Assembly (NCBI RefSeq): GCF_023499255.1
Contig: NZ_CP092183.1
Span: forward strand, 1,371,501 to 1,435,500
DNA from: Couchioplanes caeruleus
Lineage (GTDB): Bacteria; Actinomycetota; Actinomycetes; Mycobacteriales; Micromonosporaceae
Direction: 5' to 3'
DNA length: 64,000 nucleotides
In this document: positions 18,496-25,517 of the stretch, piece by piece
Layout of the letters: the number at the start of each line of letters is the position of its first letter
Numbering within the stretch: position 1 is the first letter of the stretch
Notes under the pieces: generated by a model
What the model saw: only the letters and a program-made list of their open reading frames with translations
Databases searched by the model: none
What the model was told of the DNA's origin: nothing
Program-made: the position numbers and the translations under genes

Positions 18496-18545
18496 CGGAC
18501 CACATCCGGCGCCGCCCGGGCCATCGGGCGGCGTCACCTCCCCAG

Positions 18546-18590
18546 CGGTGGGTGGTCGTGACCAAGGGGGTTGGTCACGACCACCCACCG
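18546..18590 (+). terminator. 20-bp perfect hairpin terminator
   Basis: Arms 18546-18565 and 18571-18590 are exact complements over 20 bp with a GGGGG loop, followed by CGCTTTTA. It lies 51 bases after the htrA-like stop and ends transcription before the M50 gene. Confidence 0.85.
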
Positions 18591-18708
18591 CGCTTTTATG
18601 TCCCCTCCGCGTGCTATCTGCGGGCGTGTGGCAAATCGGGGGCTCGCGTTCGGCCCGGCGGACCGCCTACTCTCCATTCGCCCATCGCGCCAGTGGAAGG
18701 CCGGCACC

Positions 18709-21700
18709 GTGACCTACGTCGAGACCCGGACGAGCGTCTGGGAGGCGCTGGCCGGACGCGCGCCCGGTGAGCCCTCCGGACCCGCCGATCCCGGGCTCTG
18801 GGGCGCTGTCGTCGACCGGCTCAACCCGGCCCGGGCCCGGCCCGTGCTGCGCGCCGGGATCGAGGCCGTCGAGCTGACCAGCGTGCGCGGGGCGGCGTAC
18901 GTGATGCTGCGCTCGCCGGACGAGGGCGGCCGCGCCTGCTACCTCCGGCTGACCCCGGAGGAATGGCAGCTGGCCCTGATGATGGACGGCACGCACACGG
19001 TCGCCCGCCTGGTCGCCGAGTTCGCCCGTCTCGCCGGGCGCCTCGCCCCGGACCAGGTCCGCCGGGTCGTCGCCGACCTGGCCGGCAACCGCATGCTCGA
19101 CGAGCTGCCGGTGGACGCGTTCCGGCCGCTGCAGGAGCTCGAACGCAAGCCGCTGCCCCGCCGCGTCGGCAGCGGCGTGCTCGCGGCGGCCCGCGGGCGG
19201 CGCATGCTCGTCTTCGACGTCGACCCGCTGATCACCGCCCTGTACCGCGCCGGCGGCAAGCTGCTGTTCACCCGGGTGGCCGCGATCGTCATGGCGGCGT
19301 TCGCGCTGGCCGGTCTCGGGCTCTTCGTGACCACGTGGTGGCGCGGCAGCCAGGCCGTGTTCCTCACCAACGGGTCGTATCTGCTCGGCGCTGTCGTGCT
19401 GCTGCTGCTCAACGTGCTGGCGCTGGCCAGCCACGAGCTCGGGCACGCGTTGGCCACCAAGCACGCCGGGCGTGAGGTGCCCGCGGCCGGGGTGCTGGTC
19501 TACTTCGGCATCCCGTCGGTGTTCGTGGACACCACCGACGTCTGGATGGCCGGGCGGCGCGCCCGGATGCTCGTCACCGCGGCGGGCCCGGCCACCGGCC
19601 TCGTCCTCGCCGGCACGATGCAGCTCGTCGGCCTCGCCGTGCCCGCGCTCGGGCCGCTCGCCTTCAAGCTCGCGTTCGCCTGGTACCTGAACGCGTTGTT
19701 CAACCTCAACCCGCTGCTCGCGCTCGACGGCTACTACCTGCTGATGGACTGGCTGGAGATTCCCAACCTGCGCGGACGCGGCCTGGCATGGGTCGCGTCG
19801 CGGCTGCGCGGGCGCCCGCCGGCCTGGGGCGGGCTGGACCGGGAGGGGCGGATCGTCGCCCTGTACGGCGTCCTCGCGGTGCTGTGGCTGGCCGTCGCGG
19901 TGAACCTCGGCTACCGGATCTGGGCGGACCGGGTGGCCGGGCTGGCGACCGGGCTCTGGAACGGCGGCGCCGGCGGCAAACTCCTGCTCGTCCTCGTCGT
20001 CGCCGGACTGTGCGCCCCGCTGGTGTACCTGGCCGTCGGCTGGCTGGCCCGCTCGTGGCGCCGCTACCGCCTGCGCGCCGCCGAGAAGCGGCGAGAGGCC
20101 GACGCCCCGCGCCGCCTGGAGGCGCTGCGCACCTCCGACCTCGGTGGCCTGCCCGAGCCCGCCCTCGCCGGTCTGGCGGCCCGCGCCCGGTGGGTACGCC
20201 CGCCGTCCGGCACCCCCATGGTCCTGGCCGGCAACACCCAGCAGGCCGTGTACGTCGTGGTAGACGGCGCGATGCAGGCCCGCAAGCCCGGCGACCCGGG
20301 CGGCACCATCCGGCACCACGTCGGCGCGGGCGGCGTCGTCGGCCTCGCCAACGCGCTCACCGGCCGCCCCGCCTCGCTCGACTGGCACACCGCCGGCACC
20401 ACGCTGCTGGCCGTACCGACGGCCACCGTCGCCACGGTCGTGGGGCCGCTGCCCGGGCCGCCGCCGGTCGACCGCGCCGAGGCCGAGGCGCTGTTCGCCG
20501 ACACCCCGGCGCTCGCCGGCCTGGCCGGGGACGAGCGCCTCGCCCTGATCGCCACCGCACATCCGGTGGACCTCGATCCGGGCGCGCCGGTCGACCTGCC
20601 CGGGCCGACCCACGCGGTCGTGGTCGAGTCCGGCGTCATCGCCATGCCCGACGGCGTCGAGCTGCGCCGGGGCACGCTCATCGGCCCGGTCGGCGACGGC
20701 GAACCCGGTACGGTCGCGCAGACGCGTACGCCGACCCGGCTGTGGGTCATCCCGGACGCCTCCGACCTCCCGCCGCTCGTGGGCGGCCGCGCGCCGGCCG
20801 CTCCGCCCGTGGCCGCTGTGGACGGTGCCGCCATGGCCCGCAGCGTGCACTCCGCCGGGGCGTACCCGCCGCTCGCGGTGCCGCCGGGGCCGCCGGACGG
20901 CACCGAGGACCCCGAGGTGGACCGCCGCTTCGAACGGCGCATGTGGTGGCTCGTCCTGCTGTTGCTCCTGCTCGCCCTGCTGCTGACCGGGCTGAACTTC
21001 GCGCCGGGGCCGGCCTGGGCCGAGATGCCGACCGACCGGGCCCTGCTCACCGCCGAGCGCGGCACCCTCGCCGTCACCGTCGACGGGCGGGCCGTCCGCC
21101 TGGCCGCGGGCGAGCGCCGGTACGTCGACGAGGGCACCCGGATCGAGGTGCCGGCCCGCGCGTCCGGCCGGCTCACCTTCAAGGGCGGCTCGGCAACGCT
21201 GCTCTGCGCCGGTACGCAGGCCGATGTGGGCGCGTTGGCCACCGACGCGGGGCGCACGCGGGTGCCGCACGGCGTGCTGACCGTGCGCACCGGGCGGGTG
21301 CTCGCCGACACGGGCAGCACGAGCGGCGCGTACGAGCCGCTGCGCCTGACCGTGCAGTCCACCGTCGGCACCGCCACCAACGAGGGACCGGCGTGGTTCG
21401 GCGTCGACCCCGCCGCGATCACCGTCGCCACCGGACGGGTGTTCCTCGGCGGCACCCCCGTCACGGCCAACGTGACGTCGCTGAGCTGCGGGGACGGCGT
21501 ACCCGTGGAACCGCCCGCGGGCTCGCCCAGCGAGTCGCCGAGTGACGTACCGTCGGATCTTCCGTCGGTGACGCCGGCCCCGACGCCGAGCTCCACGCCG
21601 CTGACCGTGCCGCCGACGACGGTCGATCCCGGGCCGGCCACGCCGGACCAGCCGCGGCCGACCACGACCCGCGCGACGACGCGGCCGCCGGCCACCACGC

Positions 21701-21858
21701 GCCCGACCGCCCGGCCGACGATCCGCCCGACGACCGTGCCGCCGAGCACCAGCCGGCCGCCGGTGCCCAGCCCGGACCCGCCCTCGACCCCGCCGTCCAC
21801 GTCGCCGCCGCCGGCGAACCCGGAGCCGTCGGACACGAGCCCGCCCGTGATTGGATGA
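18709..21858 (+). CDS. Giant M50 metalloprotease with PqqD-like, cNMP-like and FecR-like regions
   Basis: A 1049-residue protein from GTG 18709, with GGAAGG ahead of it. Residues ~75-130 resemble PqqD/winged-helix peptide-binding domains (YLRLTPEEWQLALMMDG). A multi-pass M50 zinc protease core carries HELGH (242-246) and the second motif NLNPLLALDG, with Asp340 as third ligand. Residues ~487-577 and ~625-665 look like cyclic-nucleotide-binding-type beta-rolls. A TM helix (~745-764) is followed by a FecR-like beta domain (~778-927, probably outside) and a Pro/Thr/Ser-rich tail. Peptide zinc metalloproteases of this kind occur in RiPP and NHLP-type clusters. The next genes, a zinc ribbon and a protein with an NHLP-like leader, lie directly downstream. 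The substrate is unknown. Confidence 0.75.
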   Translation: MTYVETRTSVWEALAGRAPGEPSGPADPGLWGAVVDRLNPARARPVLRAGIEAVELTSVRGAAYVMLRSPDEGGRACYLRLTPEEWQLALMMDGTHTVARLVAEFARLAGRLAPDQVRRVVADLAGNRMLDELPVDAFRPLQELERKPLPRRVGSGVLAAARGRRMLVFDVDPLITALYRAGGKLLFTRVAAIVMAAFALAGLGLFVTTWWRGSQAVFLTNGSYLLGAVVLLLLNVLALASHELGHALATKHAGREVPAAGVLVYFGIPSVFVDTTDVWMAGRRARMLVTAAGPATGLVLAGTMQLVGLAVPALGPLAFKLAFAWYLNALFNLNPLLALDGYYLLMDWLEIPNLRGRGLAWVASRLRGRPPAWGGLDREGRIVALYGVLAVLWLAVAVNLGYRIWADRVAGLATGLWNGGAGGKLLLVLVVAGLCAPLVYLAVGWLARSWRRYRLRAAEKRREADAPRRLEALRTSDLGGLPEPALAGLAARARWVRPPSGTPMVLAGNTQQAVYVVVDGAMQARKPGDPGGTIRHHVGAGGVVGLANALTGRPASLDWHTAGTTLLAVPTATVATVVGPLPGPPPVDRAEAEALFADTPALAGLAGDERLALIATAHPVDLDPGAPVDLPGPTHAVVVESGVIAMPDGVELRRGTLIGPVGDGEPGTVAQTRTPTRLWVIPDASDLPPLVGGRAPAAPPVAAVDGAAMARSVHSAGAYPPLAVPPGPPDGTEDPEVDRRFERRMWWLVLLLLLLALLLTGLNFAPGPAWAEMPTDRALLTAERGTLAVTVDGRAVRLAAGERRYVDEGTRIEVPARASGRLTFKGGSATLLCAGTQADVGALATDAGRTRVPHGVLTVRTGRVLADTGSTSGAYEPLRLTVQSTVGTATNEGPAWFGVDPAAITVATGRVFLGGTPVTANVTSLSCGDGVPVEPPAGSPSESPSDVPSDLPSVTPAPTPSSTPLTVPPTTVDPGPATPDQPRPTTTRATTRPPATTRPTARPTIRPTTVPPSTSRPPVPSPDPPSTPPSTSPPPANPEPSDTSPPVIG

Positions 21859-22078
21859 GCCCGTGCTCTGCTTCTTCTGCGCCAAGGCTGCGCGTGGCAC
21901 CTGCCGGTTCTGCGGACGCGGCGTGTGCGAGGACCATGCCCGGTTCGGGCCGTACCTGTTGCAGGTCAGCAGGTCGGTGACCCGGGAGCGCGCCGAGGCG
22001 CTGGTGGTCGAGGACGCGGTGCAGTGCGGCACGTGCCGGCCGCGGCCGCAACCGGTCGCCATGCCGGAGCTGGACTGA
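21851..22078 (+). CDS. Small zinc-ribbon protein
   Basis: About 75 residues with four Cys pairs: CFFC, CRFC, C..H (GVCEDHARFG) and CGTC, the pattern of a treble-clef or B-box-like zinc module. No membrane segment or signal peptide is seen, so it is probably cytoplasmic. The start is uncertain: TTG 21851 overlaps the M50 gene by 8 bases, and GTG 21863 would remove four residues. The tight coupling suggests it works with the M50 protein, perhaps as an adaptor (inference). Confidence 0.65.
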   Translation: MDEPVLCFFCAKAARGTCRFCGRGVCEDHARFGPYLLQVSRSVTRERAEALVVEDAVQCGTCRPRPQPVAMPELD

Positions 22079-22123
22079 CCGGCCGATACCGGACACTGGC
22101 CCGGGCCGCCTACCTTGGGCGGC

Positions 22124-22792
22124 ATGGGCGACTTCGACGTTGTGCTCGAGCGGCTCCTCACCGATCCCGCGTTCCCGGCGTTCCTGGCCCGGGACCCGGA
22201 TTCGGCGCTGGCCGGCTACCGCCTCGCGCCCGACGAGGTGGCGGTGCTGCGGCAGCAGGTGGCCGGTGACGCGGGTGCTCCGGCGGCCACGGTGGAGCAG
22301 CGGGTCACCAAGTCCAGCACCTTCGGCATCTTCGGCTCGCTCGGCGGGCTCGCCGACGCCGCGGTCGGGTCGCCGGCCGACGGCGCGGCCGGGATCGGTC
22401 CCGCATACGGCGCCCACCAGGGCTTCGGGGACGCGCACGCGGCCCGGGGCGCCGGTGCCGGCCTCGGTTCGGCCGCCTCCCGGCTGGGCGACGCGCCCCG
22501 CACCGGCTTCGGCGACGCGCACCTCCCGGCGCCGCAGGGCTACCACAACCGGGTCGACGCGGACGGCGACGGCACGCTGGACAAGGCGACCTACCGCGGG
22601 CACCGGGGTGGCGGCGCGGAGATCGTGGTGGACCTCGACCGCGACGGGCGGCCCGACTTCATCGGCGTGGACCGGGACCTGGACAACCGCGTCGACTACG
22701 CCGACTACGACAAGGACCACGACGGCGTCTTCGAGAAGCGGATGTACGACGACGACGGCGACGGCTGGCTGGACCGCACGGTCCGCCGCTGA
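22124..22792 (+). CDS. NHLP/Os1348-like leader fused to DxDxDG calcium-binding repeats
   Basis: A 222-residue acidic protein without a signal peptide. Residues 1-45 (VLERLLTDPAFPAFLARDPD, then ALAGYRLAPDEVAVLRQQ) resemble the helical leader of Os1348/Franean1_4349-type NHLP RiPP-clan proteins. The middle (~60-140) is Gly/Ala-rich with repeated GFGDAH. The C-terminus carries five DxDxDG-type calcium loops (DADGDGTLDK, DLDRDGRPDF, DRDLDNRVDY, DKDHDGVFEK, DDDGDGWLDR), as in dockerin/TSP3-like repeats. ATG 22124 was chosen over an in-frame TTG 9 bases upstream. Co-location with the M50 protease makes it a candidate substrate or exported partner; this is inference. Confidence 0.6.
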   Translation: MGDFDVVLERLLTDPAFPAFLARDPDSALAGYRLAPDEVAVLRQQVAGDAGAPAATVEQRVTKSSTFGIFGSLGGLADAAVGSPADGAAGIGPAYGAHQGFGDAHAARGAGAGLGSAASRLGDAPRTGFGDAHLPAPQGYHNRVDADGDGTLDKATYRGHRGGGAEIVVDLDRDGRPDFIGVDRDLDNRVDYADYDKDHDGVFEKRMYDDDGDGWLDRTVRR

Positions 22793-24092: not shown

Positions 24093-24128
24093 CAACTGTC
24101 GATATACCGACGTTGGAGGCCATCCCCC

Positions 24129-25517
24129 ATGCGCCGATCCCTGCTCCTCGCCGTCACCGCTGTACTCGCGGCGTCCGGCTCCGCCGTCTACATAGCCTCG
24201 TCCGCCGACGCCGCCGTCTCCTGCGCGGCCGCGTGGAGCCCGTCCGCGGTCTACACCAAGGACATGACCGCCTCCCAGTCCGGTCACAACTACACCGCGA
24301 AGTGGTGGACCCAGAACGAGAGCCCGGCCACCCACAGCGCGCAGTGGGACGTGTGGGCCGACAACGGCGCGTGCGGCGGGACCACCCCACCGCCCACGAC
24401 CACTCCGCCGACGACGCCTCCCACCACTCCGCCCACGACACCTCCGACGACGCCTCCCACCACGCCTCCGACCCAGCCGCCGGTGGGCGGGCTGCCCAAG
24501 CACGCGCTCATCGGATACCTGCACGCGAGCTTCGCCAACGGCTCCGGCTACCTGCGGATGGCCGACGTACCGGCCGACTGGGACATCATCAACCTGGCCT
24601 TCGGCGAGCCCACCTCGGCGACCTCCGGCGACATCCGCTTCACGCTCTGCCCGGCCACCGAGTGCCCCGGCGTCGAGAGCGAGGCCGACTTCATCGCCGC
24701 CATCAAGGCGAAGCGCGCGGCCGGCAAGAAGGTGCTGCTCTCCATCGGCGGCGCCAACGGCCAGGTGCAGCTCACCACCACCGCGGCCCGGGACAAGTTC
24801 GTCAGCTCGGTCAGCGCGATCATCGACAAGTACGGCCTCGACGGCGTCGACGTGGACTTCGAGGGCCACTCGCTGTCGCTGAACACCGGCGACACCGACT
24901 TCAAGAACCCGACCACCCCGGTGATCGTCAACCTGATCTCGGCGCTCAAGTCCCTGAAGGCCCGGTACGGTGCCGGCTTCGTGCTGACCATGGCGCCGGA
25001 GACGTTCTTCGTGCAGCTCGGCTACCAGTACTACGGCTCCGGCCCGTGGGGCGGCCAGGACCCGCGTGCGGGCTCGTACCTGCCGGTCATCTACGCCATG
25101 CGCAACGACCTGACGGTGCTGCACGTCCAGGACTACAACAGCGGCTCGATCATGGGCCTCGACAACCAGTACCACAGCATGGGCGGCGCCGATTTCCACA
25201 TCGCCATGACCGACATGCTGCTCGCCGGCTTCCCCGTCGCGGGCAACACGGCGAACATGTTCCCCGCGCTGCGTGAGGACCAGGTCGCCTTCGGCGCGCC
25301 GTCGTCGGTGAGCGCCGGCAACGGGTACGTGGCCCCGGCCGGCGTACAGCAGGCGGTCACCTGCCTGGTCAAGGGCAGCAACTGCGGCGGGTACACCGTC
25401 CGCAGCGGCACCAACCCGAACTTCCGCGGGCTGATGACCTGGTCGATCAACTGGGACAAGTTCTACTCGTGGGAGTTCAAGAACGCGCACGAGCCGTTCC
25501 TCAACAGCCTGGGCTGA
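24129..25517 (+). CDS. Secreted chitinase, CBM5/12-like + GH18
   Basis: A 462-residue secreted endochitinase hydrolysing beta-1,4-GlcNAc polymers. A Sec signal peptide (MRRSLLLAVTAVLAASGSAV...) is followed by a chitin-binding module at ~34-80 (CAAAWSPSAVYTKDMTASQ, YTAKWWTQNESP, WDVWADNG), a Pro/Thr linker (~82-118) and a GH18 barrel. The active-site strand is DGVDVDFEG, with Glu245 the catalytic acid; the SIGG strand (LLSIGGANG) is also present. It is a monocistronic unit with the shared 22-bp element upstream. Its binding module is nearly the same as those of the two chitinases at 55.9 and 57.1 kb. Confidence 0.95.
   Translation: MRRSLLLAVTAVLAASGSAVYIASSADAAVSCAAAWSPSAVYTKDMTASQSGHNYTAKWWTQNESPATHSAQWDVWADNGACGGTTPPPTTTPPTTPPTTPPTTPPTTPPTTPPTQPPVGGLPKHALIGYLHASFANGSGYLRMADVPADWDIINLAFGEPTSATSGDIRFTLCPATECPGVESEADFIAAIKAKRAAGKKVLLSIGGANGQVQLTTTAARDKFVSSVSAIIDKYGLDGVDVDFEGHSLSLNTGDTDFKNPTTPVIVNLISALKSLKARYGAGFVLTMAPETFFVQLGYQYYGSGPWGGQDPRAGSYLPVIYAMRNDLTVLHVQDYNSGSIMGLDNQYHSMGGADFHIAMTDMLLAGFPVAGNTANMFPALREDQVAFGAPSSVSAGNGYVAPAGVQQAVTCLVKGSNCGGYTVRSGTNPNFRGLMTWSINWDKFYSWEFKNAHEPFLNSLG

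Follow-up and report, generated by a model that had tools for sequence, protein, structure and literature searches.

The closest described system is that of the daptides. In the portion of PMC10036551 consulted, a site-2 protease fused to a RiPP (ribosomally synthesized and post-translationally modified peptide) recognition element (RRE) is said to remove the leader, and the daptide precursor is described as ending in an invariant Thr. In addition, the consulted part of PMC12455567 reports that a nitrile hydratase-like leader peptide (NHLP) engages an RRE domain in MprE/MprC. Here, we analyzed a stretch of 64,000 nucleotides (the window) from the single-contig, 8.4-Mb genome of Couchioplanes caeruleus (NZ_CP092183.1, positions 1,371,501 to 1,435,500). 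An initial annotation had singled out three adjacent genes in it, and the three were confirmed as tightly packed on the + strand: they encode an M50 (site-2-type) protease of 1049 residues (18709..21858), a zinc ribbon (ZnR) of 71 residues (21863..22078) and a leader-calcium protein of 222 residues (22124..22792). On balance, we regard this cassette as a precursor-processing machine in which a leader-guided M50 protease probably cuts the precursor of a calcium protein. As far as the consulted portions of those two sources go, such a logic would resemble that of the daptide protease combined with an NHLP-RRE contact like that of MprE/MprC, applied to full-size proteins.

The best NCBIfam match of the protease was the daptide leader protease model NF041824 (E = 1.4e-33), with 116.6 bits and thus below the cut-off of 300. 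Similar to daptide MpaP, which this model represents, the window protease has an RRE-type domain fused to an M50 protease and is adjoined by a leader-bearing gene. Different from MpaP, however, it contains tandem cyclic-nucleotide-binding-type domains and a beta domain and is accompanied by the ZnR. Daptide systems are further characterized by genes for an oxidative decarboxylase, an aminotransferase and a methyltransferase. The next match of the window protease, to the YydH/LiaK epipeptide protease NF058609, points to a related M50 core, but was confined to residues 229-351 and reached 46.4 bits against a cut-off of 225. Both models matched all 30 aligned protease relatives at E = 0.05 or better. 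At the same threshold, 8 of the 30 also matched TIGR03896, the "bacteriocin-type transport-associated protein," a match that we think arises via the cyclic-nucleotide-type domains; we know of no protease in TIGR03896 systems.

The predicted structure of the protease had a mean predicted local distance difference test (pLDDT) score of 79.2. A PqqD-like part had been suggested by the initial annotation, and residues 45-126 (18841..19086, +) were indeed predicted to form an RRE-type winged helix, with strands at 52-57, 63-68 and 78-81 followed by three helices. This fold was recovered in the predicted topology only: the PqqD profile did not match the window's own protease. The NF041824 match spans residues 76-412 and thus includes part of the RRE-type domain. 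The M50 membrane core (residues 189-350; 19273..19758, +) was delimited by profile, predicted structure and alignment. The HELGH zinc motif at residues 242-246 (19432..19446, +), identified by alignment, and the LDG aspartate 340 both lie in predicted helices, which bears out the site-2-type assignment, although PF02163 scored 16.6 bits, under its cut-off of 27.2. Where a cyclic-nucleotide-binding-like part had been noted, two tandem domains with this fold were found (residues 462-692; 20092..20784, +). The phosphate-binding signature of such domains, which we take to be GE..L...PR.A, is replaced in the window protease by GGVVGLANALTGRPAS. The signature was degenerate in six Micromonosporaceae rows (the window, L082, L088, L095, L105, and L130) and intact in others, such as L141, L156, and L160. 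Further downstream, a predicted helix that is hydrophobic by eye and likely transmembrane (residues 735-762; 20911..20994, +) precedes a predicted beta domain (residues 778-918; 21040..21462, +) and a Pro/Thr-rich disordered tail. The FecR-like part that had been proposed received no support, as the FecR profile did not match the protease in profile scans, and the predicted beta domain takes its place.

The third gene was delineated by profile matches, predicted structure and co-occurrence in the family. In its product, a disordered linker separates an Os1348-type leader from five calcium-type loops. The helical leader (residues 1-50; 22124..22273, +) matched the Os1348 family model NF038399 at E = 3.4e-8 (33.5 bits for the whole protein and 36.5 bits for the leader alone, against a cut-off of 40) and PF14407 (Os1348/Franean1_4349) at E = 3e-5 (24.7 bits, cut-off 48). 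Both scores were under the curated cut-offs, the NF038399 cut-off being reached by the relative in L160 with 52.8 bits, and all 19 aligned leaders matched NF038399 at E = 0.1 or better. A structural comparison with Os1348 gave a middling match. Thus, the leader-like N-terminus of the initial annotation does match leader profiles. The leader is followed by the segment VEQRVTKSSTFGIFGSLGG (22292..22348, +), a candidate cleavage region that was defined from the alignment of the 19 leader rows. It was kept in the 14 actinobacterial rows, where its consensus is VExRxxKSSxFGxF, and in part in the Chloroflexota rows. The calcium-type loop domain (residues 133-222; 22520..22789, +), with pLDDT blocks of 84-96, contains loops at residues 145, 170, 183, 196, and 209. 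The predicted number of five loops was therefore right, but only four of them are DxDxDG and the remaining one is DxDxDN. DUF6802 (PF20615) matched the protein at E = 0.0033 with 17.8 bits, under its cut-off of 27, so that membership was not assigned. Os1348 itself is 85 residues long and encoded near modifying enzymes, whereas in the present loci it is full-size repeat proteins that carry the leader. Different from the daptide precursor, a short peptide ending in Thr, the window protein has no short core peptide after its leader but 172 residues with the five loops, and it ends in TVRR.

The ZnR, a CxxC-CxxC-CxxH-CxxC protein, confirms the Cys-rich ribbon reported next to the protease and has relatives across the family. 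Of 150 family genomes, 63 carry it, its own included, and the copies of the other carriers are 79-96% identical. The closest record listed, from Nucisporomicrobium flavum, was 100% identical (own-genome records were perhaps excluded). Among 24 aligned relatives, cysteines 3, 14, 17, 22, 55, and 58 were invariant and cysteine 6 nearly so. Database relatives numbered 933 at E = 0.001 among 1194 candidates. Few genomes of the order (6 of 298, with a single-sequence query) or of the phylum (22 of 396) have the ZnR, which is more frequent in Chloroflexota (53 of 301, including three already known). Its N-terminal CxxC region resembles DUF2180 (PF09947), but its 16.5 bits were below the cut-off of 22.2 and it was not assigned to that family, which was carried by 4 of 120 listed relatives. 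The relatives of the ZnR and of the leader-calcium protein that we saw are mostly annotated as hypothetical proteins.

Co-occurrence of these genes elsewhere had been set beforehand as a test, and it proved strong and extended over two phyla. A strong leader gene, that is, one scoring over 80 bits, a line chosen in this analysis, was present in 55 of the 63 family genomes with ZnR and in none of the 87 without it. The Fisher value for this association (8.9e-33) is overstated, because the genomes are related. Leader and ZnR genes were on one contig and strand in 53 of the 63 genomes, with a gap of 3-175 bases in 52 and of 2189 bases in one. Moreover, an M50 protease was near the ZnR in 69 of 80 loci, partial matches counted. 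The other 11 comprised L136, two loci whose contigs are cut near the ZnR (L137 and L158) and eight with no M50 in the stretch searched (L144, L148, L149, L151-L154, and L157). The order of the genes varied while their membership stayed, so that the association does not reflect frozen synteny: the leader is upstream of the M50 gene in L138-L140, after the ZnR in the Chloroflexota loci L147, L150, L155, L156, and L159, and in L160 between the ZnR and an ATP-grasp gene as well as between the ZnR and the M50 gene. The leader match of L146 was weak (E = 1e-4) and cut by the contig end. A HemK/PrmC-like methyltransferase gene was seen between the leader gene and the protease in L138 and L139, by Pfam in L139 only.

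Chloroflexota carry the same triad with different cargo. Among 36 Chloroflexota ZnR loci, drawn mostly from the top ranks of 54 ZnR matches and covering the fetched stretches, a leader was found in 10 of 14 with M50 and in 0 of 22 without it (Fisher 3.9e-6, which ignores relatedness; the search profile included four Chloroflexota leaders).

Loss of the leader was also correlated with loss of the active site. Loci L081-L136 (56 loci from Micromonosporaceae, the metagenome-assembled genomes L131 and L134 and others) included 51 that could be scored for HExxH. The motif was intact in all 32 leader-containing loci, whereas among the 19 without one it was intact in 13 and broken in six (Fisher 0.0015, relatedness ignored). 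The genomes of two of these 13, L112 and L131, encode leaders outside the locus, and both were treated as leader-bearing on the tree. The broken motifs were HELAR (L103, L106, L120, and L122), QEFGH (L097) and YELGH (L123); a further protease, that of L043, was broken as QECGH. A quick tree of 56 proteases was built with the motif columns excluded; it omitted the fragmentary L106 and took in three extra genomes as well as L138-L140. In this tree, the leader label changed once (support 99), a change read as a loss because the outgroups bear leaders, and the active site was broken three times, in each case among the 19 tips of the leaderless clade. The calcium protein was found without leader and post-leader segment in four loci, and these are the four with HELAR; in Paractinoplanes, for instance, the calcium protein is retained and both parts are missing beside a HELAR protease, which from its motif is presumably dead. 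In the leaderless clade, the relative rate of the M50 core was 0.739 (0.58-0.90 over 12 resamples) and that of the RRE-type domain 0.315 (0.22-0.47), with ranges that do not overlap. That the M50 core, and not the RRE, relaxes and dies without the leader suggests a catalytic job tied to the leader. HExxH was also scored in 25 more loci that have both M50 and leader (L138 upward; L194 repeats L140): 23 kept it, L150 was cut by the contig end, and L248 lacks it.

Given this co-occurrence and the restriction of active-site losses to the leader-loss clade, removal of the leader is most likely carried out by the protease. The claim that the protease recognizes and removes the leader thus remains the best-supported one, to which the daptide model adds its match to every aligned relative; the part of the claim that would make the PqqD-like domain an exclusive leader binder was not supported, as this domain is conserved in the leaderless clade. 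Export of the calcium protein, raised as a possibility in the initial annotation, likewise received no support, the findings pointing neither way. In the mechanism that we propose, the third gene would yield a precursor in which a short segment and then a disordered linker connect the folded Os1348-type leader to a calcium-loop domain. The protease would sit at the membrane, where its N-terminal RRE-type domain, or another surface, would recruit the leader, and the M50 site would cut near the post-leader segment and free the repeat or calcium cargo. The tandem cyclic-nucleotide-type domains may act as a gate on cleavage. Since their ligand site is degenerate in Micromonosporaceae, they probably answer to something else there. 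The zinc ribbon would be a fixed partner of this gated intramembrane protease.

Several observations weigh against this reading. The RRE-type domain is still conserved without the leader, at 91% among 13 leaderless Actinoplanes, which points to another or wider job for it; leader cleavage would then be the best-supported job of the protease and not its sole one. The confinement of the three active-site losses to the leaderless clade has a p of about 0.04 by branch length and of 0.016 with outgroups, and in L248 a leader lies beside an M50 protein without HExxH. The ZnR also occurs in loci without M50, and L136 has leader and ZnR with no M50 within 16 kb. Weaker leader matches were present in 22 of the 87 ZnR-less family genomes, so that 77 of the 150 had leader matches overall. 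Conversely, M50 and ZnR occur together in L141, L142, L143, L145, L101, and L103, whose genomes gave no leader at E = 0.01 (in the last two, 150 of 324 and of 351 candidates, respectively, were scored); with that of L158, 7 of 20 genomes searched gave none. Leader genes are not always protease-linked, as L230, L231, and L234-L237 have leaders, yet the 9-19 kb fetched for them gave neither an M50 nor a ZnR match; L230 has five leaders, L231 has four, and L235-L237 have short leader genes. The genome of L231 (G802) also contains L232, where leader, ZnR and M50 are together, and in L233 a leader accompanies an M50 fragment. Finally, no export route was found.

Alternatively, the M50-ZnR pair might be mainly a signaling protease whose chief clients are other membrane proteins, the leader protein serving as a regulator or adaptor that binds to the RRE-type domain but is not cut. 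This is in keeping with the retention of M50-ZnR, and with the conservation of the RRE, where leaders are missing, and the cyclic-nucleotide-type and FHA domains and the kinase-like or cyclase-like genes nearby suggest signaling as well. It fits poorly with the decay of the M50 core rather than the RRE in the leaderless clade and with the finding that, among the 36 Chloroflexota ZnR loci, leaders occur only where M50 is present, and we consider it unlikely. An ordinary RiPP pathway, in which the third gene encodes a precursor and its cargo undergoes chemical modification before release, appears less likely still. The consulted part of PMC8939145 counts Os1348 and the Franean1_4349 family among RiPP precursors, and there is the ATP-grasp gene of L160 and the methyltransferase-like gene beside the leader in L138/L139. 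By eye, however, the loci read show no recurrent modifying enzyme other than that of L138/L139 (the rest of these genomes was not searched), and a large part of the cargo consists of long, repetitive or calcium-type sequence rather than a short core. Least probable, to the point of being doubtful altogether, is a permanent structural N-terminal domain with a merely co-expressed neighborhood: although Os1348 was crystallized as a stable dimer, according to the part of PMC7726476 consulted, and some leaders lie away from M50, membership is conserved in two phyla despite altered gene order, and leader and post-leader segment were cleanly lost, with the cargo retained, beside HELAR proteases.

The leader precedes very different proteins, of which the calcium domain of the window is one. 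The L131 genome encodes five leader proteins, four with TSP3 calcium-type repeats by eye; the two that were scanned matched PF18884 (E = 5.3e-37 and 2.1e-44). Other cargo includes acidic proteins in L140 and, in Chloroflexota, short tandem repeats in some loci and short leader-only genes in others. The leader protein of L232, a stretch that also carries ZnR and M50, has a long run of short AAGRQ/AGDD-type repeats. In L230 (1275-14484), five leader genes, four of them with many TSP3-type repeats, flank a radical-SAM gene (PF04055, E = 2.8e-17) of AmmeMemoRadiSam type by eye.

In L275-L278, ZnR-less family genomes with long leader proteins that were picked because of their long frames, all four had a nearby M50 protease with a fused N-terminal zinc ribbon and, by eye, an RRE-type stretch and a kinase-like frame following it. 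The order is a leader protein with a Pro/Gly/Asp-rich body, a zinc ribbon-FHA-RRE-M50 protein and the kinase-like gene. In L278, the only one scanned, FHA matched at E = 3.7e-16 and PqqD (PF05402) at E = 0.0029 with 18.3 bits, under the cut-off of 23.4. As the zinc ribbon is in trans in the cassette and fused here, zinc ribbon, sensor domain, RRE and M50 appear to have been assembled twice, and FHA may serve as the gate in this sister arrangement.

Other observations concern the surroundings of these genes. A terminator-like hairpin at 18545..18591 (+), with a 20-pair stem and a T-rich tail after it (shuffled sequences gave a mean of 0.5; two listed sites are one and the same hairpin), divides the cassette from an HtrA-like gene upstream, so that the cassette probably starts its own transcription unit. 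Downstream, a chitinase-like gene (GH18 by eye; 24126-25517 of the window) keeps its position in many cassette relatives. Three ZnR copies were found in a single actinobacterial genome (G446; L200 and L201). By eye, the M50-less ZnR of the Chloroflexota loci L270, L272, and L274 is accompanied by a PrsW-like protease, a cyclic-nucleotide-type protein and a MinD-like ATPase; in L274 the cyclic-nucleotide-type protein is fused to the protease frame, and both L270 and L274 have a cyclase-like gene after the set. This set was not seen by eye in the M50-less Chloroflexota loci L249, L253, L260, and L266, and Pfam identified a PrsW-type protease in two scanned M50-less loci, L148 and L151. The IniB-type N-terminal domain (NF038175) is weakly similar to the leader: 7 of 19 leaders matched it at E = 0.1 or better (best 0.0062), and a profile comparison gave a probability of 59.7 and E = 8.8e-5 over 29 columns. 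Going by these similarities, the IniB-type proteins, for which a locus of the same genome outside the window (G000:C1:4990021-4990167) and L279-L294 were looked at, may be distant relatives of the leader proteins.

Tentatively, and with less confidence than for the cassette itself, we propose a machine of two phyla that would apply the logic of peptide antibiotics to full-size structural proteins. In it, an NHLP-type leader would mark calcium-binding or low-complexity repeat proteins, and a protease gated by cyclic-nucleotide-type domains, or by FHA beside a Ser/Thr kinase, would, together with a zinc ribbon that is either fused to it or present in trans, strip the leader on a signal and release the cargo. 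RiPP leaders are usually seen as tags of short peptides. In both Actinomycetota and Chloroflexota, a leader of this kind stands at the head of long, repeat-rich and often calcium-loop proteins encoded beside a putatively gated membrane protease. One clade offers a natural experiment, in which loss of the leader was followed by decay of the active site. If the proposal is true, a protein-release system has been overlooked by annotation, and the orphan Os1348-type leader would gain a testable protease partner.

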